DNA from: Thermoleptolyngbya sichuanensis A183
GTDB taxonomy: Bacteria; Cyanobacteriota; Cyanobacteriia; Elainellales; Elainellaceae
Assembly (NCBI RefSeq): GCF_013177315.1
Contig: NZ_CP053661.1
Span: 1,426,001-1,490,000, forward strand
Direction: 5' to 3'
Length of the DNA stretch: 64,000 nt
The translations under genes and the position numbers were made by a program. Below are positions 6,334 through 36,826 of this stretch, in pieces; the first letter of the stretch is position 1; each line of letters begins with the position of its first letter. A model generated the notes under the pieces. The model made no database searches, had not been told where the DNA came from, and was given only the letters and a program-made list of their open reading frames with translations.

Positions 6334-6738
6334 TCAGAACGTTGCGGGATGCCCCGACTCGTGCAAGATGAGGCGGTTGCCATCGGGATCGTAGGCATAG
6401 GCTTCGCGGCCGTGGAAGTCAGTGATGATGGGGCTGGCGGGGCGCGGGGGAGCAGCGGCGATCGCGCTGTGGGCAGCCTCTACAGCGGCGATCGCCTGCT
6501 CTAGATTATCCACCTCCAGGCACAGGCTCATAGCACCGCCTGAGGAGGCTGCAAACTCTCCGGCGTGTTCCTGTCTAGGCTGAAAGATGCCAAACCGAAA
6601 CAGACCGATCTGGAATTCGACATAGGTGTTGGGAAACTCGAACGATGGAGCGATGTCGAGGAGCGTCCGGTAGAACTGCCGCAGCCGTGCCAGATTGGGC
6701 GAGGACAGGGTGAGCGTGGCGTAGTCGGTGTAGAGCAT
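6334..6738 (-). CDS. VOC-superfamily (glyoxalase/bleomycin-resistance-like) protein
   Basis: A small protein of 134 residues with the paired beta-alpha-beta-beta-beta modules of the vicinal-oxygen-chelate fold: an N-terminal module (LTLSSPNLARLRQFYRTLL) and a C-terminal module ending in the typical AYAYDPDGNRLILHE. The terminal DPDGN and Glu are usual in the metal-binding half of the family. Substrate is not deducible; members include glyoxalases, dioxygenases and drug-binding proteins. The gene is monocistronic, converging on the 4125 kinase gene. Confidence 0.85.
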   Translation of the reverse strand: MLYTDYATLTLSSPNLARLRQFYRTLLDIAPSFEFPNTYVEFQIGLFRFGIFQPRQEHAGEFAASSGGAMSLCLEVDNLEQAIAAVEAAHSAIAAAPPRPASPIITDFHGREAYAYDPDGNRLILHESGHPATF

Positions 6739-6862
6739 AATTCTCCTGAAAAAGCATTAAAAAACAGCTACTAAAGGGAGGTATCGTAGCAGAGATTTGG
6801 TCGGATTGATCAACTCAGATTCAAAATTTAAAAACCGTCTGAAATTGTCTGGAAAATCTCTA

Positions 6863-7027
6863 AGAGGGTGTTTGAAAAGGTATCGCCTGTAGTGTTAAGC
6901 ACTCAGAGATCCCCCCTAGCCCCCCTTAAAAAGGGGGGAAACCGCCTTAAAGTCCCCCTTTTTAAGGGGGATTTAGGGGGATCTTGCACGCTTTGCTACA
7001 AACAGTAGAACTTCTCAAACATCCTCT
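6863..7027. mobile_element. MITE-like palindromic element, copy 1 (GGGGGATTTAGGGGGATC family)
   Basis: A 165-bp element with imperfect terminal inverted repeats: AGAGGGTGTTTGAAAAG at 6863-6879 against CTTCTCAAACATCCTCT at 7011-7027. The inside is strongly palindromic (GATCCCCCC ... CCTTAAAAAGGGGGG ... CCCCCTTTTTAAGGGGG ... GGGGGATC). A related element sits at 18558-18713. It has no coding capacity. Its right terminus reaches into the stop codon of the kinase gene at 7026-9059. Confidence 0.8.
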
Positions 7028-9059
7028 AAAACACGTCGTCCGGAAGCTGCCACAAACGCACGGTGCTAAATCCTTTGCCCGTAGCAATGGTTCTCCAGTC
7101 GGGGCTGACGACCGCATGGTCAAGGGGCGCTCCTTCGCCTGCGAAGATGTGGGTGGGTTTTCCAGTCACCAAATCCCACAGCGTCAGTTGCCCTTCGGCA
7201 TCGCTGCTAAGCAGGGTTCTGCCATCGCCGCGCACCGCCAGCGTGTTAATAAACCCAGCCGATCCCGTCAGCGGTTTGCCCTGTTCGCCTGTCTCCAGGT
7301 TCCAGCGATAGATAGTTCGATCTGTGCCGCCTGCCAACACCTCAACACCATCCGGCGTAAAGGCGATCGCATTGATGACTCCAGTAAATCCGCTGAGCGT
7401 TCGTCGCTGCGTTCCAGATCTGAGATCCCAGACCATCAGAGTTATATCTGTGCCCCCGCTGACGATCGTGCGGGCATCGGGGCTAACGGCGATCGCATTG
7501 ATGAACCCGTCATGTTCCTCTAGGGTGTGGATCGGCTGCCCCGTTGTCAGGTTCCAGGTTCGCACCGTGCCATCCGCGCTGCCGCTGATCAGCGTTCCAT
7601 CCGAGGCGATCGCCAGCGCGTTGACCGCGTTCGTGTGCCCGACCAGCGTATGTCGGATTGTGCCGCTGGGCAGATCCCAGATCAAAATTTGATTATCTGC
7701 GCCGCCGCTCGCCAGCGTTTGTCCATTGCCGCTTAGCACCACCGCATTCACGTAGCTGCTGTGTCCCTTGAGGGTGCGGAGGGGCTGCCCGGTGGCCACG
7801 TCCCACAGGATAATCTGATGGTCTGCGCCACAGGTGATTAACCGCTGCCCGTCTGGTGTGAACACGGCATGGTTGATGAATCCGGTGTGTCCTGTGAGGG
7901 TGGCGCTGGAGACGAGCGGCTGTACCGCAACGATTCCACCACTGAACTGCTGATAAGCCCGCCAGCCGCCCCAGCCCGCCAGCCCAATCAGCAGCGCTGT
8001 GGCACTGCTCCAAAGCCAGGGATACTTCCAGCGAAACGGGGTGTGCTGGGTCTGGGTCTGCGCGGGCTGAAGCTGGGTCGTTCTGGGCGATGAGGGACTT
8101 TCGGCGGGCCGTGCAGCAAGAGCCTGGATGCGGGGCAGGTTGCTGGGTGGGGCGATCGCCGCCAGGTCTTCCAGAATCTCGCGGGTGCTACTGGGGCGAT
8201 CGCTCGCTTTGGGCGCGATCAGACGGTCAATAAAATCGGCAAACGGCTCCGACACCTGCGGCGCAAACTGCCGCCAGCGGAAGCTATTGTCGTGGGGATT
8301 GTAGATGTCAGGATCGGTCGGTTGCTTACCCGTCAGCAGGTAAATAAACGTCCACCCCAGCGCGTAAAAGTCGGACTGGGGAACTGCTTGCCCCCTTTCC
8401 TGCTCTGGCGGCGTGTAGCCTGCGGAGCTAATGCGGGTCACGCCTTCGGAGCCGCCTAGCTGTGCTAGATAAGTTGCGGTCATCTCGCGCACCGCGCCAA
8501 AGTCCACCAGCACCAACTGCCCATTCGACCGCAGCATGATATTTTCGGGCTTGATATCCCGGTGAAAATAGTTACGCTCATGCACCAGATGCAGCACCTC
8601 CGTCAGTTGCCGCATCCACCTTCGCGCCTGCGCCTCGCTGATGCCGTGGTTACCCTGCTGCCGCATCCATTCCCGCAGGTTGGGCCCGTCGATTTTTTCC
8701 ATAATGATGCAGTGCAGCGGCGACTCGCTGCCGCGCGGCAAAAACTGGAAGTAGCCATCTGGCTCAATCGCAGGCACACCGGGATGGCGCAACTGGCTCA
8801 GCACCACGGCCTCTCGCTGAAACAGGGCGACGGCCTTGCTGTGGCCGCTGTGGATTTCCTTCAGCGCCTTGAGGATTTTGGGCACGTTGCGTTCGTAGGC
8901 TTCGTACACCTGCCCAAAGCCGCTTTTGTCGCTAATTAGCCGCATGACGCGATAGCGCTCCCGCAGCACCAGATCCGACCCGCAGCTTTGGCAAAAGCGG
9001 CTGCCGTCGTTGCCGGGGTGATTGGGTTCAGTGCACTGGGGATTGATGCAGAGGCTCAT
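7026..9059 (-). CDS. Serine/threonine protein kinase with transmembrane helix and seven WD40 repeats
   Basis: Hanks-type signalling kinase. I start it at the ATG at 9059 (MSLCINPQC), giving 677 residues, because this begins a CxxxxC...CxxCG zinc-ribbon-like segment common at the N-terminus of cyanobacterial kinases; the upstream 43 codons look like non-coding read-through. Kinase motifs: glycine loop SGFGQVYEAY, lysine in LKALKEI, HRDIKPEN catalytic loop, VDFGAVRE and the PPE segment GYTPPEQ. A Pro/Gln-rich linker and one hydrophobic helix (WLWSSATALLIGLAGWGGW) follow. Seven consecutive WD40 units (GH...D.Q.ILWD) then make a complete predicted propeller, probably outside the cytoplasm if the helix spans the membrane. 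The last codon and stop lie at the edge of a MITE. Confidence 0.94.
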   Translation of the reverse strand: MSLCINPQCTEPNHPGNDGSRFCQSCGSDLVLRERYRVMRLISDKSGFGQVYEAYERNVPKILKALKEIHSGHSKAVALFQREAVVLSQLRHPGVPAIEPDGYFQFLPRGSESPLHCIIMEKIDGPNLREWMRQQGNHGISEAQARRWMRQLTEVLHLVHERNYFHRDIKPENIMLRSNGQLVLVDFGAVREMTATYLAQLGGSEGVTRISSAGYTPPEQERGQAVPQSDFYALGWTFIYLLTGKQPTDPDIYNPHDNSFRWRQFAPQVSEPFADFIDRLIAPKASDRPSSTREILEDLAAIAPPSNLPRIQALAARPAESPSSPRTTQLQPAQTQTQHTPFRWKYPWLWSSATALLIGLAGWGGWRAYQQFSGGIVAVQPLVSSATLTGHTGFINHAVFTPDGQRLITCGADHQIILWDVATGQPLRTLKGHSSYVNAVVLSGNGQTLASGGADNQILIWDLPSGTIRHTLVGHTNAVNALAIASDGTLISGSADGTVRTWNLTTGQPIHTLEEHDGFINAIAVSPDARTIVSGGTDITLMVWDLRSGTQRRTLSGFTGVINAIAFTPDGVEVLAGGTDRTIYRWNLETGEQGKPLTGSAGFINTLAVRGDGRTLLSSDAEGQLTLWDLVTGKPTHIFAGEGAPLDHAVVSPDWRTIATGKGFSTVRLWQLPDDVF

Positions 9060-10515: not shown

Positions 10516-11688
10516 ATGGGGACAAACGGAACCTCTGGATGGCTGATCTTCAAGTCTCAGATCCAATCCCAGAGACAATCCCAGGGTCAATCCCAGAGCC
10601 AATTCCAGCACCCTGATGCCCCACGTACCACCTCAGCAAACTCAACGGGTGAAAACAAACGCTCTATGACTACAGGTACCAGAGCAAGGCGGGCAAGTAA
10701 ACCCCCTGCAATCTCCCCAAGCGGCACGCGCACCCTGGCGCTGGATGCAGGCAACTACGACCTCAAATTTTTTGATGGCAACGGTCATCCCAAGGCGATT
10801 CGCTCGGTGCGCTATCACCTACCGTCGGGGCGCGATGCCGTCAGCTATTCCGACGCTTCGCCGCTGATCGAGCTGCCCGACGGAACCCGCGTCCACTTTG
10901 GCGCACAGGCCTACAAATACCGCCGCCAGCAGCAGACGGTCGTGGAAAACAAGGTAGAACTGTCGCGCCTACATCTCTACGCCTGTCTAGAGCCGTTTAA
11001 TGGCAGTACCGAGTTCACCTTGCAGGTTTATGCTTCCACCCCGGAACCCGCCAAAAATCGGGACGCGATTCGGGAGCAACTCATCGGGATGCACGAATTC
11101 AAGCGCAACGGGCTAGACTACCGCGTCATGGTGGAAAGCGTGGACGTGGAGCGCGAAGGCATGGGTGCATACCACTATGCACGGCAACTGGGCATGATTC
11201 CCGATGCGGGCTTTACCATCGTCGTCGATATTGGCGGCGGCACCTGGCTAACGCGGCTGGTGGACGCTGAGGGCGAAGTAATTGACGAAAACGTGATGGA
11301 TCGTGGTGGCGCGTATGAACTGGCGGCCTCCATCAGCTTCGACAAACGGCTGACCACAGCACTGGGGACAAGCGCTGACCCCAGTATCGTGATGGACGGC
11401 TTTCGCGCTGGGCACACCTATGCCGACACGGAGCTAACTTGGGCCCCCTGGCTGGAAGAGCATCTCGACCCCTGGTTTAAGGGCATTTTCCAAACCGTGC
11501 GATCGCAATACAACCCCTATATGCCCCGCGTGACGCGCTTTCTGGTGACGGGCGGCAGCACCCACCTGATTGCTGAACGGCTGCAAGGGCGCAAGCTCTT
11601 TGCCGTCATGGGCGATCCGCAATTCGCCAATGTCCGCGGTTTGTACTCGATGTCGATGGACCAACAGCTATGCATGACAACAAAGTAA
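10516..11688 (+). CDS. ParM/StbA-like actin-family ATPase
   Basis: Actin-fold protein of the plasmid-segregation ParM/StbA type, on what looks like chromosome. The fold signatures are visible: phosphate-1 loop LALDAGNYDLKFFD (about residues 74-87), phosphate-2 loop VVDIGGGTWLTRLVD (about 236-250) and the adenosine motif FLVTGGSTHLI (about 337-347). The first 50 codons are Gln/Ser-rich; a second ATG at 10666 (MTTGTRARRASKPP) is a credible true start. The gene overlaps the next one by 19 bases, so the two are translationally linked. Family members polymerise into filaments that push DNA apart when joined by an RHH adaptor bound at a centromere. Whether this copy moves DNA, or has another cytoskeletal role, is open. 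Confidence 0.85.
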   Translation: MGTNGTSGWLIFKSQIQSQRQSQGQSQSQFQHPDAPRTTSANSTGENKRSMTTGTRARRASKPPAISPSGTRTLALDAGNYDLKFFDGNGHPKAIRSVRYHLPSGRDAVSYSDASPLIELPDGTRVHFGAQAYKYRRQQQTVVENKVELSRLHLYACLEPFNGSTEFTLQVYASTPEPAKNRDAIREQLIGMHEFKRNGLDYRVMVESVDVEREGMGAYHYARQLGMIPDAGFTIVVDIGGGTWLTRLVDAEGEVIDENVMDRGGAYELAASISFDKRLTTALGTSADPSIVMDGFRAGHTYADTELTWAPWLEEHLDPWFKGIFQTVRSQYNPYMPRVTRFLVTGGSTHLIAERLQGRKLFAVMGDPQFANVRGLYSMSMDQQLCMTTK

Positions 11689-22343: not shown

Positions 22344-22922
22344 TCAGCTCTGATGAGAAGATATCAAACTGACTTCACCTGTGAGCTTAGCAAAATAAAG
22401 CTCTACGTCTAAGTCAGGGTAGCGCTGCCGAATTTGCTCATAGGCTTGAGTCAGATATTGAGTATGAAGGTTTTGCTCAGATATCAGATCAGAGAATGGC
22501 TGTTTGTATACACTGGCGTAGGCTCCACAGTCTTGGTGGTCGATAATGACTACTTTGCTGATGTTATGCAATTGTCTAGACAACGCCAACTGATCCCAAA
22601 ATGCTTCTGCCTCTGCGGGGTGGGGAAACCCAGTGAGAGCTAGGGATGCTCCGGCTAAGGTGACCCAATCATAGGCTTGATCTAAATGCTGACCGGACAA
22701 AAAGGATTGTTCCAAGTCCACAAAGCGAAAGTCGATACAGGTCAGCACCAATGCCTCGGCTTGATGTTCACTGGCCCGGGCGCTTTGGGGAAACATCAGA
22801 TTTACACTAGAGACTAGTCCAGTAGTCAATACCCCCTTTAGAAAGTGTCGGCGAGTCACTCTAGCTGCTTGGTGACAACAGCAACAAGAATTATTGAACT
22901 CAGCCTGAAAAGGTTTAGCCAT
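22344..22922 (-). CDS. Tat-exported beta-carbonic-anhydrase-like enzyme, 3' end at an IS border
   Basis: Predicted zinc enzyme interconverting CO2 and bicarbonate. The N-terminus has a twin-arginine signal (TRRHFLKGVL, then a hydrophobic stretch ending ARA) after a Cys-rich segment, so it should act in the periplasm. The beta-class zinc ligands are seen as CIDFR (about residue 62) and HQDC (about 127-130). The chain is 192 residues. Its TGA stop lies within the terminal repeat of the IS5-like element, which suggests the insertion trimmed the last residues. The start is 84 bases downstream of the SulP transporter gene on the same strand, so the two form an operon and probably work together on inorganic carbon. 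Confidence 0.85.
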   Translation of the reverse strand: MAKPFQAEFNNSCCCCHQAARVTRRHFLKGVLTTGLVSSVNLMFPQSARASEHQAEALVLTCIDFRFVDLEQSFLSGQHLDQAYDWVTLAGASLALTGFPHPAEAEAFWDQLALSRQLHNISKVVIIDHQDCGAYASVYKQPFSDLISEQNLHTQYLTQAYEQIRQRYPDLDVELYFAKLTGEVSLISSHQS

Positions 22923-23006
22923 AGATTCGGTTGGAGCATTATGCCAGAGGTATGAGGGTAGGCTTGACCGCCTCCCCCTGAGCTTTTCAATTTAGACCGT
23001 GTAAAT

Positions 23007-24689
23007 TTAGACCGTGATTTTCTCAGAATTTTTCTGACGGGAGGGCGACGGCAACTCACAAAATAACTGAGAGGTGAGGGATCTGACGGCAGCATCAGTA
23101 CTGTCAAAACAGTTCTCCACACCAATGCGCTCAAGCAAGCCTGTGCGTTCGAGGAGTTGCTTGACCTCTGGCTGTAAGCCACTAAGCAATAGTTGACAGC
23201 CCCGTCGCTTCAGATCGTGGTATATGTCTTCAAGGGCGACTAACCCTGTAGTGTCCATATTAGGAACAAACCGCATCCGCAGAATCAGGTAGCGTACTTC
23301 AGGTTCATCACGGAGGAAGGTGACAAAGCGTTCGGCGGCACCAAAAAACATGGGGCCATCCACCCGATATACTGCGATTTGTTTGCCCAACTCTAGGGGA
23401 ATGCCGGGGGGGAAGGCTTCTGTTTCAGGAATTTTGCCCATGCTCAATTCACTCATCCGCTTGATAAAGAGTGCTCCGGCAGCAATCAACCCGACTTCCA
23501 CGGCTAGAACTAGGTCAAAGCAAATGGTCACTGCCCAGGTCAATACCATAACGGCGAAGTCGGCATAGGTTGCCCGCATTAGTAAGCCGATCGCCTCCCA
23601 TTCCAGCATCCGCAAACTGGTAACCATCAAAATTCCAGCGAGGGCTGCTAGGGGAATTCGAGCCGCTAAGGGCGCTAGCAGTAGCACGATCAGCAGTAGC
23701 ACCAGACTGTGAATGATGCCAGAGAGTCGGGTTTTGCCCCCAGAGCGAATGTTGACCGCAGTGCGGGCGATCGCGCCTGTCGCGGGGATGCCCCCAAAGA
23801 AGGGCACAACCATGTTGGCAATGCCTTGACCGATCAATTCGCGATCGCTATCGTGTTTTTCGCTGACAGTCATGCCATCCGCCACCACCGCTGATAGCAG
23901 CGATTCAATGCTCCCCAGAGCCGCTAGGGCTAAAGCTGGTTTGATCAATTCCTGAATTAGGCCAAAGTCTTGCCAGTGGGGAATACCGTGGGGCATCGGC
24001 AATGCCTGGGGAATCGAGCCAATAGTGGGGACATCGAGGTGTAATCCCGATACCAATAGCGCTGCCAACACTAACCCCACCAATGAGCCGGGAATAGGAG
24101 TTCGCAGTTTAGCCCACAGAAGCTTGGTGACAATCACCACAGTCGCGATCGCGATCGACGACCAGTGCCCCTCGGATAGATGATGCAAGGTTTCCCATAA
24201 ACCAGGCAAAAAGTGTTCTCTGCGAGGCAATGTTAATCCCAGGAAATTATTCAACTGCCCACAAAAGATGATGATGGCGATGCCATTGGTGAACCCAGCT
24301 GTGACGGGGTAGGGAATAAACTTGACCAAACGTCCTAATTTAGCCACGCCTAAGGCAATCTGAATCAGCCCCGCCATGACTCCAGCCAGCCAAACCTTTT
24401 CGATGCCGTACTTAGCAACAATACCCAACAAAATCACAGCCATCGCCCCAGTGGGACCAGTAATTTGCACCGGGGAGCCGCCGAAGAGGGCAGCAACGCC
24501 ACCGGCCACAATCGCCGTGTAGAGTCCGGCTTTGGGATCAACGCCACTGGCGATCGCGAAGGCAAGCGCCAAAGGCAGGGCCACCACCGCTGCCGTCAAG
24601 CCTCCCATCAAATCGCCCCGCCAGTGTACTAATAGGTTTCGCCAGCGGAAACGATTACTGTCTGTCGCAGTTACAGCCTGATCGATCAT
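23007..24689 (-). CDS. SulP-family anion (probably bicarbonate) transporter with STAS domain
   Basis: A 560-residue permease with the SulP core: N-terminal GLTAAVVALPLALAFAIASG and the signature region around GSPVQITGPTGAMAV and PYPVTAGFTNGIAI, about a dozen to fourteen hydrophobic segments. A cytoplasmic STAS domain (about 430-545) contains the DTTGLVALEDI strand-loop where anti-sigma-antagonist-like proteins carry a Ser/Thr. SulP members move sulfate or bicarbonate (BicA in cyanobacteria). The downstream carbonic anhydrase favours bicarbonate, but that is inference. An ArsR regulator lies upstream on the opposite strand. Confidence 0.92.
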   Translation of the reverse strand: MIDQAVTATDSNRFRWRNLLVHWRGDLMGGLTAAVVALPLALAFAIASGVDPKAGLYTAIVAGGVAALFGGSPVQITGPTGAMAVILLGIVAKYGIEKVWLAGVMAGLIQIALGVAKLGRLVKFIPYPVTAGFTNGIAIIIFCGQLNNFLGLTLPRREHFLPGLWETLHHLSEGHWSSIAIATVVIVTKLLWAKLRTPIPGSLVGLVLAALLVSGLHLDVPTIGSIPQALPMPHGIPHWQDFGLIQELIKPALALAALGSIESLLSAVVADGMTVSEKHDSDRELIGQGIANMVVPFFGGIPATGAIARTAVNIRSGGKTRLSGIIHSLVLLLIVLLLAPLAARIPLAALAGILMVTSLRMLEWEAIGLLMRATYADFAVMVLTWAVTICFDLVLAVEVGLIAAGALFIKRMSELSMGKIPETEAFPPGIPLELGKQIAVYRVDGPMFFGAAERFVTFLRDEPEVRYLILRMRFVPNMDTTGLVALEDIYHDLKRRGCQLLLSGLQPEVKQLLERTGLLERIGVENCFDSTDAAVRSLTSQLFCELPSPSRQKNSEKITV

Positions 24690-26209: not shown

Positions 26210-27339
26210 TATCAAATCTCCAAAGATCTGCTACATATAAGAAGACGTTAGAGCGAGCCGCCATGAGTGGAGTCCTCAAAATCGATATCGCTGAAACAGC
26301 AGAAGAACTAAAAGCCGTCTTGGAACAACAGCAACGGTCATCACAGCGCCGTAAAGTACAGGTGTTGTGGTGGTTAAAAACCGGACAAGCGAAGAGCGTT
26401 GAGCAGTTAGCCCAACTGAGCGGTTGCCATCGCACGACCGTGTCTCGTTGGCTGAGCCAGTATCGACAGAGTGGACTCGAAGCGTTGGTGAAGGTGGCAT
26501 CTCGCAGTGGACGACCGCGAGCGATTAGCGGTGAAGTCCTGGCATCTTTGGAGCGGGAACTGCAAGATCCAGAAGGCTTTAGCAGTTATGGAGCAGTGCA
26601 GCAGTGGCTCGCAGCGGTACATGGTCAACCCGTCCCCTACAAGACGGTGCATAAGACGGTGCGCTATCGGCTCAAAGCGAAGCTCAAAGTGCCCCGTCCG
26701 GTGTCAAAGAAGCAGACTCCTGGGGCGTGCGAGTCCGTTCAGCAAACCTTGCAGCCCAGATAAGCCAGTCGATTCCGCCAGCCTTGAGACAACGCTACGG
26801 GGGGCGAATCCGCTATTGGTGCAGCGATGAGAGCCGCGTCGGACTGCTGACGGTTCAACATCGCAAGTTGACGGGCTTTGGGGTGCAGCCGATTGGTTCA
26901 GTTCAATGGGACTTTGTGTATCGGTGGCTGTACGGTCTAGTGGAACCGCTGAGCGGTGCATCGTGGATAGTCGAGTTTTCTCATCTCGACAGTTCCTGTT
27001 TTGAGGCGTTTTTGCACAGCTTTGCGGCTCAGTTCCCCGATGATTTACATCTGATTCAGGTGGATAATGCCGCAGCCCATACGGCTCAGACCCTGACGAT
27101 ACCGGACAATGTCATCTTGGTGTTTCAGCCGCCTTATTGCCCTGAGGTCAATCCCATTGAGCGGGTCTGGCGGGAACTCAAGCGGGAGCTAGCTTGGGTT
27201 CACTTTGATGATGTTTGCCAACTCCAGCACGCCATCAGCCAGTGGGTTTGTCGCCTTTCGGCGGAGTCGCTGCGATCGCTGACTCAGTGGGATTGGATTG
27301 TCGATGCTCTATGTGTAGCGGGTATTTAGAGAATTGATA
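26210..27339 (+). mobile_element. IS630-family insertion sequence
   Basis: Related terminal repeats begin TATCAAATCTCCAAAGATCT on the left and, on the opposite strand, TATCAATTCTCTAAATACCC on the right, bounded by TA dinucleotides (26210-26211 and 27338-27339), the target used by IS630/Tc1 elements. It lies directly against the truncated start of an IS66 transposase. The exact outermost bases are uncertain by one or two positions. Confidence 0.85.
26263..27329 (+). CDS. IS630 transposase in two frames
   Basis: Frame one (26263-26763) encodes the helix-turn-helix half: VEQLAQLSGCHRTTVSRWLSQ and SRSGRPRAIS. Frame two (about 26712-27329) encodes the DDE catalytic half: WCSDESRVGLL, IQVDNAAAHTAQ and PEVNPIERVWRELK. 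The second frame is -1 relative to the first, and the two overlap at about 26700-26763, so a ribosomal -1 shift would make a single protein of about 355 residues, as in other IS630 elements. All three acidic residues are present, so the element may be functional. Confidence 0.85.
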
Positions 27340-28198
27340 TTATCAATGCAGCGATTGAGTGGGATTTACGAGCGCATTGAATTGCCCCGATTGACCCCTC
27401 ACATCACCCGAGTTGAACGCTACGGTGGGACTTGTCAGTGTTGCCAAAAGGCGTATGAGGCTCCGGTTCCAGTCGGATTAGAGCCAGGGTCTCCCTTTGG
27501 TACGAGTGTTGCGAGTCTAGTCACCTATCTACGCTACAGCCATGCGATCAGCTACCAACGGTTGAGCCACTTGATGGGCGACCTTTACGGTCTAAAGCTG
27601 TCGGAAGGAGCCATTGCCAATCTCTTGCAACGGGTGCAGGGGCAGCTAGAAACTCCAATTGCCAAGATCGTGGAACGTTTACGCAGTGCTCGGCTAGTTG
27701 GTAGGGATGAAACCGGGGCGCGGGTGAATGGGAAAAACCAGTGGGAATGGGTGTTTCAAAACGACCAGGTGTGTCTGCATGGGATTCGTCCCACTCGTGG
27801 CAAAACGGTCATTGATACCGTGATGGCTGGGCATCAACCGCAGATTTGGGTGTCTGACTTATTCAGTGCTCAGGCAGCCCATCCGGCCCAAGACTGGCAA
27901 GTATGTCTAGCGCATCAACTGCGTGATTGTCAGTATGCGATTGATGCAGGGGATGATTTGTTTGCGCCCCGGATGAAACGGCTGTTGCTCAAAGCCATCG
28001 CCTTGCAACGGCGACGACAGATCCTTGCCACCTCGACCGTCGAACAGTATTGCGCTCGATTGCGTGGGTCACTCCGAGAGCTTCTCAACTTGCAGCCCAA
28101 ATCAGTCGAGGGACAAAGGTTGCTCAAACGCTATCAGAAGATTCGCGCTCATCTGTTACTGTTTCTGACCGATGAGGCAATCCCGCCGACTAATAATG
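27340..28198 (+). pseudogene. IS66-family transposase remnant, 5' part
   Basis: Reading from about 27346, the frame gives the IS66 zinc-ribbon (GGTCQCCQKAYEAPVP), the catalytic start GRDETGARVNGKNQWEWVF and the DDE middle (HQPQIWVSDLFSAQ, CLAHQLRDCQYAID), then the motif EAIPPTNNA, where a 1517-bp IS interrupts it. The N-terminal third of a normal IS66 transposase is missing; the break coincides with the right end of IS630. The remaining C-terminus continues at 29788-29900. Confidence 0.9.
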
Positions 28199-29781
28199 CT
28201 TTAGTTTGGACTAACTTTAGTTTGGACTAACTGGCATCACAATAATGCTCAACAGGATGCCATAAAGAATCTGCTCAACCGTTCATAACAGTTGAACTTA
28301 AGGAATTGGATACAATCCTGCTCGCAGTTAAGCTGCTGTTGCAACCGGACTGTTCAGGGATTGTTCGGATGTCTTGCGTTTCGAGGCTCGTTTTTTGACC
28401 ATCGGATAGCAGGGACGAGGAGTTGGCTTGTGCCCCTTGCCTCGTCCTGGCGATTTACCACGAGGTTTAGGCGCAGGAGCAGGGGTGCCAATCGCTGCCA
28501 AAATGCCTGCAAACGCTTGTGCGACCCGACCCGGAGTCAACGTTTCTTGCGGTGCCTGCCAGGGCAAGGGGTGGTCAGTACAGTCCTTTCGCGCTAACCA
28601 CAACTGCCAACTGAGCAACGGCATCAGGCTGCTCCACTGTTCGGTTGCCGATACAGAACTGAACTGGGGATGTGTCCAATATAGCCTCTGCTTGGCAAAG
28701 CGATACCAGTGTTCAATGGCAAAGCGACGGAGGTAGTGCAACCACAGGGTTTCTAACGGAGGCATCTGCTCACCCAGCCAAACTAACCACAAAGGAGCCA
28801 AGCGTCGCGTGCTGCTCTGTGTCTCCAGCACCTCCACGCGCAACACTTCCATTGCCCGTTTGGGGGATTTGCGGAAATGGTATGCACTCCAACGACTGAC
28901 CCGCACTCGTCCCCAGTTGGGATCATCGACTTCAACGGTTTCGACCGGGACACTCCAAGTGTCAGGGTCATTGAGTTTCATCTTATGTCCATGCTTGGCA
29001 GGTGCGCCTCGCCCTCGATACGCTGGGGGCGCGCCATAGACACATCGATTGGATGTAACCCGCAGCAGCAAGTCTGCCTCAATCCCTGCCGTTTGGTTGA
29101 CAAAACTGGCATTGCCGTACCCTCGGTCGTAGATCGCCAACGGACGCACCGCTAACTGCCGAGTCACTTGTTTGAGTTGGAATGCCGCTTTACTGGCGGG
29201 TGTTTCAAACGAGTCACTTGTTTGAGTTGGAATGCCGCTTTACTGGCGGGTGTTTCAAAGCTGGTGATGCGCTCATGCCGCAATGGTAATGCCCAACTGC
29301 CCCTGTCTTCAGCAATCCAGGCTAAGGTACTGTAGTTTTGTCCGGCTATCGGGGCATGTCCTGTTCTGCCTGATAAGGTGCGGTCTTTCAAACGCCTGGC
29401 AGCAGGACGGTTCCACCGACTCGCATCACCTGCCAACAACGGTTGCTGCTGAGTCGGTATCTGCTGCACCAACAGCTTCAGCACCTTTGATCGGGGTAGG
29501 CGGCTATCGCGCAACGCTTCATAGGTGCTCGACCACTGGCGACGAAAGACAGGACTCTGCGATAGCCTCACAAACGACACGATGCACGCACTCACTAACA
29601 CGGCATCCATCAGATCAAACAGGGCATCTCTGGCGTTTCCCAAGCTGGCATACAACGTTTGGCGAAATTGCTGAAGTTCGTTGAAAATCATGGGGTCAAT
29701 GTTGGTTGTACTTCATTGACCTTACGGCAGTCGGTGCTTCTCATTGACTGCCTTCCTCTTCACCATTAGTCCAAACTAAAG
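28199..29781 (-). mobile_element. Second copy of the 1517-bp IS, enlarged to 1583 bp
   Basis: Inverted relative to copy 1. Flanked by a 6-bp duplication ATAATG (28193-28198 and 29782-29787). It differs from copy 1 by two tandem duplications: the 16-bp terminus CTTTAGTTTGGACTAA occurs twice (28199-28214, 28215-28230), and a 50-bp internal segment is doubled (29161-29210, 29211-29260). The sum, 66 bp, accounts exactly for the length difference. Confidence 0.95.
28328..29691 (-). pseudogene. Transposase of the second IS copy, broken by a 50-bp duplication
   Basis: The N-terminal 161 codons (from 29691) and the C-terminal 279 codons (to 28328) each match the intact copy at 14979-16292 in the translated sequence. 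The 50-bp tandem duplication at 29161-29260 shifts the frame after residue 161, so no full-length product is made. The near-identity of the two copies implies recent transposition. Confidence 0.93.
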
Positions 29782-30068: not shown

Positions 30069-30804
30069 TGAAATCTCGTGAAGGTGGGTAGGAAAGGGTG
30101 AGCTGACATGAGACGCTGAAATTTGCATATCTCCAGAGTCCTGAACGATGTCATCTCAAAATCGGTCTCCGCTGGCTCAAGGGGGCGGTCAACCAAGGGC
30201 GGCCACTATCACCGATTGCCCTCTTTAGCGTTGACCCTGAACCCTGTTTTGCTTCTAAACAAGCTGAGGCCAAGCATTATGACCTTATCTGGTTCTCTAG
30301 AATCCAATCCATGCGCTGCTAGTATCCCCTTGGGAGGCTGCCTAAAGATGTGTCAGGCGGTCAGGGTGTACACAATAGCCTAGACAGCGCGACCCATGAA
30401 GCTGCTAAAAATAGCTGAAAGTCTTGCGGCATATCAAGTTAAATCAGCTAAACCAACAATTAACCCAACATTCTAAAATCGCCAATCTAAAATCGTCAGT
30501 CTAAACTTTAGAACTGACATTGCTTCCTCATTATGCCGGGTGGAGGGATCATTCCACCAGTTGCACACAAAAACGCGCTGCAAACTTTGGAATTGCTTAA
30601 GGCACATGGGCATCGCTTGTGTTCTGTACAACTGACGCAAATCAGGCATCTGGACTATTTCTAAAGGGATGGCGCTGCGCCGACGTAACGCTTAGGTTTT
30701 TGTTCGCGGCAGCGTTGTAGCGGGTTGAGTTGGGTTGGCGTTCCGTGAGCATTCAGATAGCCCGCACTGCACGGTTTTATTCACCTTTCGCCAGTATCCT
30801 CCTC
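30069..30804. other. Gene-poor region upstream of the giant fusion protein
   Basis: About 735 bases without a convincing large gene. A 43-codon ATG frame at 30533-30664 (MPGGGIIPPVAHKNALQTLE) may be chance or a degraded fragment. The promoter of the 30805 gene should lie here. AT-rich words such as CAATCTAAAATCGTCAGTCT occur near 30481. Confidence 0.4.
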
Positions 30805-33800
30805 ATGTCAAAAAATTTTGGTTTTTGGATAGACCGTTTTGCTTCGGCTGGTCTGGCTGCGTCGGGTCTTTTGCTCGTGCTGCTGGGAATTATGCCTGCT
30901 AATGCAGCAGATTTGCAAACTGTGGCTTCAAAACCTGCAACGCTCATTCGCATTGACGGGGCCCGCGATCTGCTGTCGCTGAATCGGGCGCTCAAGCAGC
31001 AACTCGAAGCAGAATCGCCCGACCTCACGGTGGAAGTGCAGTCCAATGGAACGGATGCAGGGCTGGCAGCGCTGAAGCGAGGTGAGGTGGATTTGGTGGC
31101 AGTGGGGCGATCGCTCACGCCAGACGAACTCGCCCAAGGCTTCAAAACGCTATGGCTGGATCAGGCGCAAATTGCAGTCATCGTGAGCGAGGATAATCCT
31201 TTTAAGGGACATCTGACGGTGCAGCAGTTCGAGCAAATCCTGCGCGGTGATATCACCAACTGGACGCAGGTGGGCGGGCCCGATCGCCCGATTCGCCTGA
31301 TCGATCGCCCACCCACTAGCGAAACGCGGGCGGCCTTGCAGCAGTATGGACTCGTGCCGCCGGATGCGTTGCCAGAGACCGTGAACCGGGTGCTGCTGAA
31401 AACCGACGACACGGCCGAGGTCATCGCCAAGCTTGGGAAAGATGGGATTGGCTATGCGATCGCCAGCCAGTTGACCCAGCAGACCAAAGCCCGCGTGGTG
31501 AAGCTGGCGGTTCCCCAAGAGGTCTTGCCGATGGATGCGCGGTATCCGCTGGAGCAGGTGGGGGCGATCGCCTATCGACCCGGTTCTCCCGCAGCAGCCG
31601 TGGCGCAAAACCTGACCACATCGCCTGATGGGCAAGCGCTGCTGAGCGAGGCAAAACGGGCGATCGCGCTGGAGGCGGGCAAACGCAAAACCGTGGCGAT
31701 CGCGCCTGGCGAGGTGGTTCCCGGCGGGCGCGGCATTGGCTCTTTGCTGAAGTGGGTGCTGCTGCCGCTGCTGGTGCTGGGCGGGCTGCTGACGCTGGTG
31801 CAGGCGGTGCTGGCGCGGCAGGCTCGTCAGCGAAATCAAGCGTTGTCTGCGGCGGAGCAGGCCGTGTCTTTGGGGCGATCGCCAGACTCTACCCCAACTC
31901 GCCCAGCGGCGACGGCTGCCAAAACCAGAACCAATAGCGCCCAAGTTCGTATCCCAAACGACACCGCCTGGACTTCCGTATCGGACGCAGTGGTAATTGA
32001 GGGGTCAGATGTTGAACTAGAGCCTGAATCAACAGAGGAGCAGAGCGATGATACGGGCGTTCCACAGACTGATGATCAATCGGAAAGCATCGATTCTAAA
32101 TTTGGCACCGTAGAGCTTCTAGGTTCAGAATCAAATCTCGAACCTGAGAGCGAACTATTCCTGGAATCAAATACTGATACGAAAGCGACAGACATTGACA
32201 CGGTTGATGCCGAAGCAATTGATGCTGAAGCGATTGATGCCGAAGTGACTCATGAGATAGAGGATAAACCAGAGCCGGAATCTGAAGCCATTACCGAGAC
32301 GAACGTGGAGCTTCCAGCAGAAAATACGCTGCCCGCAGAGGGCGATCGCCCTTTGCTGGTAGCTGAGCCGGAACGCATGGAGGAACGTGAAAATGAGTCT
32401 AATACGCCTGTAGATGAACCCACAGGAGAATTCACGGCAGAGGACGTTCAAACCGCTCTGGTGACTGGACTGGCCCTTTCACAAGCATTGACGGGCGAAC
32501 CCAAACAGACACCATCGCTCATAGAAACGCTCCGGTCAGAAAAGCAAACATTGGAACTAGAAATCGAGACGCTGCGATCGCGCTTGCAGGATGCCGACAC
32601 CCGACGATCTGAGCTAGAAGCAGCGTTGGAAACTGCACACGCAGAACAGTCCGACCGCACGGCTGACCTGGATGAACTGCGCCAAACGCTGGCAGGCGTT
32701 ATTCAAGAAAAAGATAGCTACTGGCAGGCTTTGAGCGGCTTTTATGCGGCGTTTGTGGGCGAATCGCTGAACCCTGGAGAGCGAGTCGATTTCGCCCAGC
32801 TTCGTCCCCAGATTGAGCATCGTCAGGCAGATCTGGCGGCATTGCACGATCAGCTTGAAACAAGCCAGCGCGAACGAGAGGCGATCGCCGCCGATCTGGA
32901 AGCCGCAAGCGCAGAGCTGCGCCAGGTGAACGCCGAGCGGAATGAACTGACGAATCAGATTGTCTTGCTTCAGCGAGAGCTAGAAGCACAGCGAAATTCA
33001 GAAACGGCTGCTGAAGAAGAAACACAGAGTCTTCAAGCTTTGTTGCAGTCAGCGCAAGCAGAGAAGACGGATCTAGACGTGCAGCTAGATAATCTGCGAT
33101 CGCAGTTTGAACGTATTCAAGCTGAAAGAAATGACGTAGAGGGAGAACTAATATCGCTGCGATCGCGGCTCACAGAACTGGAAGGCTTGGAGACAGAACT
33201 GCGAACGGAACTGGAAACCGCGCGATCGCAAACTGAAAACGCTGAAGCAGCCGTTTCTGAAACGGAAAACGCCTTGTTGGCATTGCGCTTAGAGCTTGAC
33301 GCTGAGAAGGCAACCCGAAGCGAGTTGGACGCAGAAGTGACGCTGCTGCGGGCCAGCGTGGCGGAATCAACCCGTGTTCGGGCAGAAGAGGAAGCCGCGC
33401 GGGCAGAACTCTTGTCGGAAGCCAACGCGCTGACAGCCGAGCGGGATGCGCTTGGGGATGAGCTTGCGACCTTTCGCACTCGTGTAGAAGACCTTCAGAG
33501 AGAACTGGAGGCAGCACAAGATGCCCATGCAGCAGAGCTTGTGACCCTGAGGGCCCAGTTGGATGCGTTCGTTGAGGAACAAACGGCCGCCCAGCAAGCC
33601 ACAGCCGCAGACCTGGAAGACCTGCAAGCCCGGTTAAACCATCTCATAGAGGAACGTGATGCGCTGGATTTAGAGCTGGCCACTGTCCGCTCTCAGCTTT
33701 CGGATGCCACTGCCGCAGGCGAAACAGGGGCGCAAGAATTAACGGAATTGCGAACTCAATTAGAGGCGATCGCCGCTGAGCGAGAAGCAGTTATCTTACA

Positions 33801-35811
33801 ACTTGCGACGCTGCAAACTCGGTTTGACGAAACCGTGCAGGAGCGCGACGCATTGGCAGCAAACTTGGCTGATCTCAACACCCAGGTAGCAGACAAAACG
33901 GCTGCACAGGAAACGCTAGAATCCGAACTGGCGGCTCTGCGAACGCAGTTCGGCAACGTCACGGAAGAACGCGATGAATTCATAACTCAGCTTGATGAGT
34001 TGCAAGCCCATCTCGATAAGATTGCTGAACAGCGCTCTGCGTTTGAAGCTGAACTGACTGCACTACGTCCCCAGATGCAGAATCTAACCGCTGAACGGGA
34101 TGCATTTGAGGCAGAAATTGTACAGCTCCAGGCACAGCTAGACGAAATGACCCAAGAGCGCGATCGCCGTGAAGCCGAGCTATCCACGCTGCACTCTCAG
34201 ATAAACGACATCACCCTGGAAAAGGATACATTTGAGGCAGAGATCGCTACACTCCGCGCACGGCTGGATGAACTTGAGCAGGAACGCAATACCTTTGAAG
34301 CAGATTTAACCGCGCTACAGGTTCAGTTCGATGAGTTTGAAAGCGGACGAGAAGCGCTGGAATCAGAAGTGAACACGCTGCGGACTCAGCTAAAAGAGGT
34401 TCGGGATGAGGCACAAGGTGCAAAGGTTGCTCTAGAGTCAGAACTGGGAGTGCTGCGAGAACAACTGGCTCAAGTAACGCAGGAACGAAATGAGTTTGAG
34501 GCTGAGCTAGCTTCTGCACAGACACATCAGGAGGAGATTGTTCAAGAACACGATCAGGAACGTCTTGCGCTGCAAGAACGGATTGCCACCTTACAAGAGC
34601 ATCTCGCGACGGCGAACAGCGATCGCACGACAATTGAAACAGAACTGGTCGCTCTTCGCACACAACTAGAGGATACCGAAGCAGAATGGCGATCGCGCGT
34701 CCAGACGCTTGAGGCCGAGTCCGAAACGCTTCGACAGGCGCAGGCAGAAACCCAGGCTCAGCGAGAAGCGCTTCAGGCAGAACGGGATACCCTCACGGCA
34801 CAGCTTGCTGAGGTGCGCTTGCAGCTAGAGGCTTTGCCGCTGGCGCTGACGGCGGAGACTGGTGCGACAGGGGCTAGGACGACAGGGGCTAGGGTGACAG
34901 GGGCGATCGCCCTCTCAGACGCAGACACATCCAGCATCGCCACTGAATCGCCAGATCGCGAAGTTGTTCAGGCAACCGGACAGATTGCCGATATTCGGCG
35001 CGACCCGTTGCGCGATATCAACGGCATCGGCCCAATTTATGAACAAAAGCTGTTCAATGCAGGCATCTACACCTTTGCGGATTTGGCAGCGCTCACGCCA
35101 GCGCAGGTGCAAGAGATCATTCGTCCGGCCGCGTGGCAGCAGATTTTTCCCGCCCTGTGGATCGAGGAAGCGGCGCGGTTTGCTCAGGGCGTAGACATTC
35201 CCGCAGACACCGATCATGACCCGCTGCGCGACATCAATGGCATCGGCCCGGTGTATGAACAGAAGCTATTCGATGGTGGCATTTTCACCTTTGGGGATTT
35301 GGCCACTGCAACACCAGAGCAGTTGCAAACCCTGATTCAGCCGGAAAGCTGGCAGCGGTTTGATCCGGAGGCGTGGATTGCCGAAGCGCAGATGATTAGT
35401 GGGCGATCGCCCGCCTCCATCCCGGCAGAGGTACCCCGCGACCCGCTGTATGAAATTAATGGCATCGGCCCGGTTTACGAGCAGAAGCTGTTTGCGGCTG
35501 GAATTACCACCTTTGCAGCATTGGCGGAAGCCTCTGAGGCACAGATTCTAGACATCATTCAGCCCGCATCCTGGCAGCGCATTTTCCCCAATTTGTGGAT
35601 TGAGGAAGCACGAGAGCGATCGCGCCAGCCAGACCAGTCCCAGCCAGACCAGACAGCTTCTAGCAAATCCGCTGAAACCCCTGCTGTTGAAACTACTCCC
35701 CAGGCAGAGCCGCCAGCCGCTAGCCCGTCTGCGAAGTCCTCTAGCAGCCCTACATCCAAGTTCACGTCATCCCGGAAAAAGCCGCCCAGCAAGCGGGGCA
35801 AACGCCGTTAA
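30805..35811 (+). CDS. Giant membrane protein: PstS-like domain, long coiled coil, three helix-hairpin-helix repeats
   Basis: A 1668-residue protein of a combination I do not recognise as described. Signal peptide (1-34, ending MPANA). Residues 35-300 resemble phosphate-binding PstS-type domains (GLAALKRGEVDLVAVGRSLT, FEQILRGDITNWTQVGG, KLGKDGIGYAIASQL). A transmembrane helix at about 311-335 (LLKWVLLPLLVLGGLLTLVQ) is followed by an acidic linker to about 570. Then comes about 780 residues of coiled coil, rich in LRSRL, ERDAFEAEL and similar heptad-like units. Three repeats beginning DPLRDINGIGP at about 1399, 1471 and DPLYEINGIGP at about 1546 match helix-hairpin-helix domains of the COG3743 type. 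The tail is basic. I chose ATG 30805 because it starts the signal peptide; an upstream TTG is in frame. Topology suggests ligand binding outside and coil plus HhH inside. Confidence 0.85.
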   Translation: MSKNFGFWIDRFASAGLAASGLLLVLLGIMPANAADLQTVASKPATLIRIDGARDLLSLNRALKQQLEAESPDLTVEVQSNGTDAGLAALKRGEVDLVAVGRSLTPDELAQGFKTLWLDQAQIAVIVSEDNPFKGHLTVQQFEQILRGDITNWTQVGGPDRPIRLIDRPPTSETRAALQQYGLVPPDALPETVNRVLLKTDDTAEVIAKLGKDGIGYAIASQLTQQTKARVVKLAVPQEVLPMDARYPLEQVGAIAYRPGSPAAAVAQNLTTSPDGQALLSEAKRAIALEAGKRKTVAIAPGEVVPGGRGIGSLLKWVLLPLLVLGGLLTLVQAVLARQARQRNQALSAAEQAVSLGRSPDSTPTRPAATAAKTRTNSAQVRIPNDTAWTSVSDAVVIEGSDVELEPESTEEQSDDTGVPQTDDQSESIDSKFGTVELLGSESNLEPESELFLESNTDTKATDIDTVDAEAIDAEAIDAEVTHEIEDKPEPESEAITETNVELPAENTLPAEGDRPLLVAEPERMEERENESNTPVDEPTGEFTAEDVQTALVTGLALSQALTGEPKQTPSLIETLRSEKQTLELEIETLRSRLQDADTRRSELEAALETAHAEQSDRTADLDELRQTLAGVIQEKDSYWQALSGFYAAFVGESLNPGERVDFAQLRPQIEHRQADLAALHDQLETSQREREAIAADLEAASAELRQVNAERNELTNQIVLLQRELEAQRNSETAAEEETQSLQALLQSAQAEKTDLDVQLDNLRSQFERIQAERNDVEGELISLRSRLTELEGLETELRTELETARSQTENAEAAVSETENALLALRLELDAEKATRSELDAEVTLLRASVAESTRVRAEEEAARAELLSEANALTAERDALGDELATFRTRVEDLQRELEAAQDAHAAELVTLRAQLDAFVEEQTAAQQATAADLEDLQARLNHLIEERDALDLELATVRSQLSDATAAGETGAQELTELRTQLEAIAAEREAVILQLATLQTRFDETVQERDALAANLADLNTQVADKTAAQETLESELAALRTQFGNVTEERDEFITQLDELQAHLDKIAEQRSAFEAELTALRPQMQNLTAERDAFEAEIVQLQAQLDEMTQERDRREAELSTLHSQINDITLEKDTFEAEIATLRARLDELEQERNTFEADLTALQVQFDEFESGREALESEVNTLRTQLKEVRDEAQGAKVALESELGVLREQLAQVTQERNEFEAELASAQTHQEEIVQEHDQERLALQERIATLQEHLATANSDRTTIETELVALRTQLEDTEAEWRSRVQTLEAESETLRQAQAETQAQREALQAERDTLTAQLAEVRLQLEALPLALTAETGATGARTTGARVTGAIALSDADTSSIATESPDREVVQATGQIADIRRDPLRDINGIGPIYEQKLFNAGIYTFADLAALTPAQVQEIIRPAAWQQIFPALWIEEAARFAQGVDIPADTDHDPLRDINGIGPVYEQKLFDGGIFTFGDLATATPEQLQTLIQPESWQRFDPEAWIAEAQMISGRSPASIPAEVPRDPLYEINGIGPVYEQKLFAAGITTFAALAEASEAQILDIIQPASWQRIFPNLWIEEARERSRQPDQSQPDQTASSKSAETPAVETTPQAEPPAASPSAKSSSSPTSKFTSSRKKPPSKRGKRR

Positions 35812-36196: not shown

Positions 36197-36826
36197 CTAG
36201 GAAAACTGCGTCAGGATATAAAGCAGCGCAAACAGGATGATCCAGATAATATCCACAAAGTGCCAGTAAATTTCCGCCATTTCAACGCCTGTGTGCTTGT
36301 GGTCGGAATAGTGACCCGCGCGGCGCGATCGCCACAACACGCCTAAAATTAGCACCAGCCCAATGAAGACGTGCAGCCCGTGAAAGCCCGTCATCAGGTA
36401 AAAGCAATTGGCAAAGATATTCGTCTTGAGGCCATAGCCCAGCGTTGCATACTCATAGGCCTGTCCTGCAAGGAAGACTGCGCCCATCAGCGCTGTGACA
36501 ATGTACCACTTCCGCAGACCGTTCACGTCGTTTTTCTTGATAGCGACATCGCCCAGGTGAATCACAAAGCTGCTCGACACCAGAATGATGGTGTTGATCG
36601 TTGGCAGCAGCAGTTCCACCTCGGTTCCCTCCGGCGGCCAGTGGCTTGCGGCCCCGCGTACCATCAAGTAAGCGGCAAAAAATCCGCCAAACATCAGCGA
36701 TTCGGAAATTAGGAACGTCAGCAGCCCCCAAACTCGCAAATCGGGATGCGCGTGGTCATGGGCCTGAGCCTCGGCAGTAATTTCGGGGGCGATCGCCGCT
36801 CCGGTGGGTGCAGTTGCGTCAGTCAT
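36197..36826 (-). CDS. ctaE: Cytochrome c oxidase subunit III
   Basis: Membrane subunit of the aa3-type respiratory oxidase. The 209 residues contain five hydrophobic helices after a 30-residue polar N-terminus, without the two extra N-terminal helices of mitochondrial subunit III. Typical sequence: WGLLTFLISESLMFGGFFAAY, GFHGLHVFIGLVLILGVLW and the C-terminal EIYWHFVDIIWIILFALLYI, with the conserved Glu and His. It is the last gene of the ctaC-ctaD-ctaE series and lies 130 bases after ctaD. An inverted pair of GA/CT-rich segments separates them. Confidence 0.95.
   Translation of the reverse strand: MTDATAPTGAAIAPEITAEAQAHDHAHPDLRVWGLLTFLISESLMFGGFFAAYLMVRGAASHWPPEGTEVELLLPTINTIILVSSSFVIHLGDVAIKKNDVNGLRKWYIVTALMGAVFLAGQAYEYATLGYGLKTNIFANCFYLMTGFHGLHVFIGLVLILGVLWRSRRAGHYSDHKHTGVEMAEIYWHFVDIIWIILFALLYILTQFS

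Follow-up and report, generated by a model that had tools for sequence, protein, structure and literature searches.

A candidate envelope-anchored tether with a PstS-like head, a long coiled coil and three HhH repeats in Thermoleptolyngbya sichuanensis A183, from a modular cyanobacterial protein family

CisA of Streptomyces is a bitopic protein that combines an outer solute-binding-protein-like domain with a cytoplasmic part required by another complex, as described in the accessible part of the source (PMC12237407). One cyanobacterial metacaspase carrying a PBP_like_2 domain appears as a tabulated case in the accessible part of a second source (PMC4933709), and a third presents Syc2039 as rich in coil, with a membrane segment predicted near its N-terminus (PMC7002697). 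In addition, the PDB chain of Sll0540 of Synechocystis (9l8j) is a single domain of 242 residues whose loop reads SGT.

The protein analysed here is encoded at 30805-35811 of a window of 64,000 nucleotides, by which we mean the whole stretch of DNA studied, and compares with each of these systems in part only. Its head resembles Sll0540 and PstS-type proteins in fold, whereas the loop reads SET and the domain is fused to a membrane helix, a coil and HhH repeats. It would share with CisA a bitopic plan with a solute-binding-protein-like outer domain; however, in this likening by description, the order of CisA is opposite and its cytoplasmic part is largely unstructured (PMC12237407, accessible part). 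With Syc2039 it has in common the abundance of coil and the predicted N-terminal membrane segment, whereas a PstS head and HhH are unmentioned for Syc2039 in the accessible part of its source (PMC7002697). The metacaspase is another cyanobacterial fusion of the same domain type, with a different partner domain and order (PMC4933709, accessible part).

The open reading frame runs uninterrupted on the + strand from an ATG at 30805 to a stop codon ending at 35811 and encodes 1668 amino acids; with an alternative TTG start at 30730 the protein would be 25 residues longer. The window corresponds to positions 1426001-1490000 of a 5.5-Mb genome contained in a single contig, which makes a mis-assembly join within the gene unlikely. 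An assembly or frameshift artefact, a concern of the preliminary description of this DNA, could be ruled out, the frame being unbroken and the genome one contig. The order of domains proposed there, from signal peptide to basic tail, was confirmed by the reading frame, Pfam, a hydrophobicity scan and sequence periodicity. Specifically, a signal peptide of about residues 1-35 (30805..30909, + strand, as for all features below), with a hydrophobic segment at 9-27 and a cleavage site placed by eye, is followed by the PstS-like domain with its DRPPTSETR motif (residues 40-300; 30922..31704), recognized by Pfam, AlphaFold2 and Foldseek. A membrane helix, found in the hydrophobicity scan and in the AlphaFold2 model, occupies residues 315-338 and is followed by a basic RQARQR (31747..31818); then come an acidic linker with a net charge of -44 (residues 361-575; 31885..32529), the coil, the repeats and the tail. 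Pfam PBP_like_2 (PF12849) matches residues 40-260 with 87.8 bits against a cut-off of 27, HHH_5 (PF14520) matches three stretches with 81.2 bits against 27, and IMS_HHH also exceeds its cut-off. The hydrophobicity scan detects segments 9-27 and 318-336 only, and the net charge is 0 before the membrane helix and +3 after it. These basic residues, together with relatives that carry phosphorylase-like or TPR regions in the same place, support the earlier proposal that the coil would be cytoplasmic.

The gene is oriented towards a cox operon on the opposite strand (COX3 at 36197-36826). Upstream lie transposase fragments of the IS66 type and of other DDE transposases (26727-29691), and a sulfate permease of the SulP/STAS kind (22344-24689) with an adjoining carbonic-anhydrase-like gene. 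In the congener G001 (85% complete) the cox genes have other neighbours, so the giant gene is absent from that site, and no such gene was found next to the cox operon in the stretches read of G001, G003, G022 and G004.

An AlphaFold2 model of residues 24-345, based on 48 sequences, reached a mean pLDDT of 84.1 and includes the membrane helix. Its best Foldseek match is Sll0540 (9l8j; E 2.9e-26, 35% identity), with PstS proteins next, and the family profile matches 9l8j at E 5.8e-78. As modelled, the head has the PstS fold, a likeness that covers the fold and not all ligand residues; with 80.8 bits against 206.6, the head misses the cut-off of the NCBIfam PstS model TIGR02136. The ligand residues of E. 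coli PstS we take to be Thr10, Ser38, Asp56, Arg135 and Ser139-Gly140-Thr141. At these positions the window head carries Asp, Thr, Gly, Arg and Ser-Glu-Thr, in columns matched by motif and in a comparison that misaligned one of four PstS controls (L003). The equivalents of Arg135, Ser139 and Thr141 are retained, Glu in place of Gly140 turns the SGT phosphate loop into SET, and Asp stands at the Thr10 position, which is Ser in 88 of 95 DUF4912 heads; the head of L168, a relative described below, has Pro at Arg135 and Leu at Thr141. Of 135 heads of the family, 104 have SDTR at the loop and 5 have SETR; none has the Gly of SGT, and the last Arg is present in all. Phosphate sensing by the head, as previously suggested, is doubtful because the SGT loop has become SET and the Thr10 equivalent Asp; the changed positions leave that suggestion unsupported, without refuting it. 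On the same residues, PstS-like phosphate binding appears doubtful in the whole family, and more so in the coil-type heads than in the family at large, and a different ligand or a protein partner would be as likely. A scan of ten neighbouring open reading frames found no pst transporter genes, and an ordinary transporter protein is ruled out by the fusion, the neighbours and the ligand residues.

Residues 576-1345 (32530..34839) are predicted, on periodicity and composition, to form a coiled coil that is probably dimeric. The heptad contrast between a/d and other positions is 0.528, compared with a mean of 0.144 and a maximum of 0.214 in 300 shuffles, and a control, the PstS domain, does not rise above shuffle level; the windowed spectrum of the region peaks at 3.51, and its internal lags are strongest at 42 and 21 residues. 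An alpha-helix rises 0.15 nm per residue, and an unbroken one of 670-770 residues would measure about 100-115 nm, where the preliminary description gave more than 100 nm for a continuous helix; the coil is imperfect as a rod, however, with a Pro/Gly-rich break near residues 631-668 and register shifts. The region also brings the Pfam Filament model above its cut-off (61.2 against 40); this score is a weak sign of kinship because long coils can reach the cut-off without it, and filament homology was distrusted as several unrelated coil families score too. An SMC/Rad50 identity was ruled out: the NCBIfam equivalog match has its best stretch inside the coil and covers the coil only, at 105.8 bits against a cut-off of 729.4.

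The three HhH repeats lie at residues 1400-1461 (35002..35187), 1472-1533 (35218..35403) and 1546-1607 (35440..35625), all recognized by Pfam and by our own HhH profile and the first also by fold; their starts are 72 and 74 residues apart, in agreement with the spacing originally reported. Repeat 1 shares only 57% identity with repeat 2 and 61% with repeat 3, so the triplication is not a recent one. A low-complexity tail with a basic end follows (residues 1608-1668; 35626..35808; pI 10.4). Membership of HHH_5 is indicated by the Pfam score and by fold matches to HhH proteins, and kinship with the COG3743 type is presumed. A model of one repeat, built from an alignment of 3 sequences, has five helices (mean pLDDT 83.2); its nearest folds are Pol theta, RadA and NusA, with VIA Z values of up to 9.6, a level common for small helical folds, and Foldseek returned no match to this model at E 0.001 or better. 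The top NCBIfam matches, all below cut-off, are two ribosomal L21 models, DNA polymerase IV, NuoE and S2, with RadA and phasin models lower in the list and likewise under cut-off, and the best PDB sequence match, a complex I subunit, is weak (E 0.0058). The net charges of the repeats are -3, -7 and -4, no Lys or Arg occurs in the four residues after GIG, and the only basic part is the tail. Because the repeats are acidic and the NCBIfam matches mixed, we judge a protein partner more likely than DNA. The DNA link drawn in the preliminary description is accordingly left unsupported, yet the nearest folds belong to nucleic-acid proteins and it is not refuted.

At E 1e-7 our HhH profile found matches in 4 of the 36 genomes of the family, where at most 16 candidates per genome were scored, and the identical 4 among 388 class genomes, where all were scored; more diverged HhH would escape both scans. 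In the window genome alone, and at a single locus there, do these domains stand in a PstS-headed frame; in two of the four genomes the matches are weak and fall in short proteins without head or coil.

A wider view of the head shows the protein to be one member of a widespread modular family, which could not be visible from a single sequence. In the window genome, PBP_like_2 gives 10 matches, 9 of them above cut-off, and five of these nine are long, namely the window protein, a protein with a phosphorylase-like domain and three with DUF4912 repeats. At E 1e-10 the head has matches, plain PstS-like proteins among them, in 44 of the 60 relatives, and a profile of the window-type head, irrespective of the fused part, matches 215 of 388 class genomes at E 1e-55; the whole giant protein, used as query against genome contigs, matched no relative. 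For classification, 80 named loci (the best 80 of at least 543 confirmed stretches), 67 ORFs from relatives, 26 from a wider draw and the window protein gave 174 rows with 156 distinct sequences; 40 further regions from relatives had been picked mainly by frame length, leaving out many shorter or weaker head matches. DUF4912, alone or with WD40, is the commonest fused part (60/80, 50/67 and 11/26 in the three sets), and phosphorylase is found in 5/80, 10/67 and 4/26. The rows without a scanned domain (12/80, 6/67 and 11/26) are not truly empty, since the scan sought phosphorylase, DUF4912, WD40 and HhH only; some carry TPR and some are cut by a contig end. A hydrophobic segment after residue 250 is present in 157 of the 174 rows. 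Compared with the DUF4912, phosphorylase-like, TPR and WD40 proteins, the window protein has the same head, with a DRPxxSDTR-like motif, whereas the other parts differ. By a simple composition rule, a long coil is present in two rows, with 785 residues in the window protein and 679 in L168 against at most 125 in any other, and HhH is detected by our profile in the window protein only. Three PstS-headed proteins with TPR were noted, L076 (6776-10198) by Pfam, L234 (661-4125) and L240 (750-4322) by likeness. As far as sequence comparison can tell, a PstS head, usually with a membrane helix, is joined to exchangeable parts across cyanobacteria, and the family is apparently large and undescribed. 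The literature searched, mostly non-subscription, contained no account of it, nothing on a fusion of PstS with glycogen phosphorylase and nothing on HhH with coil and nucleoid in cyanobacteria.

The long coil recurs in L168 (882-4935) of genome G022, which belongs to the same family as the window genome and to a different genus. Here a signal-like segment, the head, a helix at 383-401, an acidic linker and a coil succeed one another until the frame runs off its contig inside the coil, within 126-base repeats. As L168 is truncated there, the order including HhH is complete in a single case, and no HhH end for this gene was found in the G022 genome (best E 2.36). The same order, for which the preliminary description proposed a search, is found in another genus from head to coil but not as far as the HhH repeats. 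In L189 (18127-18932) tandem 126-base repeats, of 42 residues, prolong a coil to the contig end. A congener of G022, G004, encodes L061 (5786-9001), which consists of a signal-like segment, a helix, a coil and an HhH domain; the helix-coil-HhH order is common to it and the window protein, whereas L061 is devoid of the PstS domain and has one HhH instead of three. In the coils of the window protein, L168 and L061, lags of 42 and 21 residues are among the strongest, lag 14 ranking first in L061, and the three can be aligned, as coils can by composition alone. FHA-like neighbours of L061 and L189, recognized by eye, are 50% identical, at differing distances and on differing strands, and were given no weight.

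In a 28-tip tree of heads, the window head pairs with L168 (ultrafast bootstrap 85) inside a clade of 20 tips (ultrafast bootstrap 100) that comprises the phosphorylase-type and TPR-type proteins and two short or contig-cut ones. The same pairing (0.825) is recovered by a FastTree of 139 heads, in which one head of the phosphorylase type (L048) falls together with three PstS controls outside the main group. As both coil-type heads sit on long branches, their pairing could be overstated. Genomes G000 and G022 each also encode a phosphorylase-type protein. In 12 of 12 fused phosphorylase domains examined (ten from the ORFs of relatives, plus L069 and L237), the GNMK lysine and the LNDTHP histidine are missing, the His being replaced by Asp; the fused domains of L071 and L235 stop before these sites and are not counted. 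The two ordinary phosphorylases of the window genome retain both residues, the lysine being presumably the one that holds the cofactor. With both residues lost in all twelve, a non-catalytic binding role fits, and the fused phosphorylases are likely to be non-catalytic, membrane-anchored parts, perhaps glucan-binding.

On this evidence, we give about an even chance to the giant protein being a bitopic, envelope-anchored long tether, a function that we infer from its sequence. The signal peptide would export the PstS-like head to the periplasm or the thylakoid lumen, and the single helix would fix the protein in the membrane. On the cytoplasmic side, the acidic linker, probably disordered, and the coil, probably dimeric and roughly 100 nm long, would place the basic tail and the three HhH domains at a distance from the membrane; there the latter would bind a partner, more likely a protein than naked DNA. 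The head would anchor the protein and act in recognition, its target being an altered ligand or a further protein of the envelope, and would not be an ordinary carrier of phosphate. Such a protein may have originated by exchange of the cytoplasmic part inside the PstS-headed family, as relatives of the same clade carry non-catalytic phosphorylase-like domains or TPR. Against the tether speak the occurrence of the full order with HhH in one genome, the different neighbours of the cox genes in the incomplete congener G001, the long branches behind the pairing of the coil-type heads, and the fold and NCBIfam results, which would also suit DNA or RNA binding. A direct link from envelope to nucleoid, in which the head would sense phosphate or another anion while HhH repeats and basic tail hold chromosomal DNA, is quite unlikely: the nucleic-acid affinities of the fold, HHH_5 and IMS_HHH above cut-off, the basic tail and the retained Arg, Ser and Thr of the head would all suit it, but every repeat is acidic and bare of Lys/Arg after GIG, and the ligand site is altered in both coil-type heads, by the SET loop and Asp at Thr10 in the one and by Pro and Leu in L168.

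That the coil polymerises or bundles into a membrane-anchored filament or scaffold, with head and HhH as mere end fittings, we consider unlikely. The very long heptad array and the Filament score, itself within reach of unrelated long coils, would agree with it, as would the filament-like networks that Syc2039 forms in cells; the accessible part of the same source, however, doubts that Syc2039 truly forms filaments, because it has a membrane segment and gave no clear filaments in vitro (PMC7002697). The HhH end, moreover, is found at a single locus in the genome. Very unlikely, finally, is a recent fusion without selected function. The transposase remnants at 26.7-29.7 kb, the complete order in one genome only and the long branch of the window head would be in keeping with such an event, but the 5-kb frame is open with every domain recognisable, a second PstS-coil protein (L168) exists in another genus, and the repeats have diverged from one another.

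More broadly, the tether might belong, as its member of long reach, to a so far undescribed class of transmembrane receptors of cyanobacteria. Such receptors would combine a modified PstS head outside with interchangeable inner parts that bind without catalysis (dead phosphorylase, DUF4912, TPR or coil with HhH), and in the giant protein an envelope signal would travel inward over about 100 nm, to the nucleoid, to a carbon store or to some other large body. This proposal is tentative and rather doubtful as it stands. In this family, heads of the phosphate-binding type are combined with parts that resemble glycogen enzymes or scaffolds, and the testable idea is that nutrient or envelope state is tied to carbon stores or to the organisation of the cell; to this the window protein would contribute a tether that might reach across much of a cell. 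PstS-phosphorylase proteins were found in L040 (7262-11737) and also in L043, L044, L045, L046, L048, L049, L069, L171, L172, L173 and L237. A glycogen debranching-type gene lies near that of L040, which suggests a possible link of these genes to glycogen. In L040, L043 and L048 the PstS-phosphorylase gene adjoins a PstS-DUF4912 gene and a gene for a 131-residue protein, which lies between the two (6606-7001, 6776-7171 and 11156-11551, respectively); for the L040 copy, neither Pfam nor NCBIfam gave a match at E 0.001. A sequence resembling this small protein, by eye, was also noticed at the end of some PstS-TPR and PstS-DUF4912 proteins.
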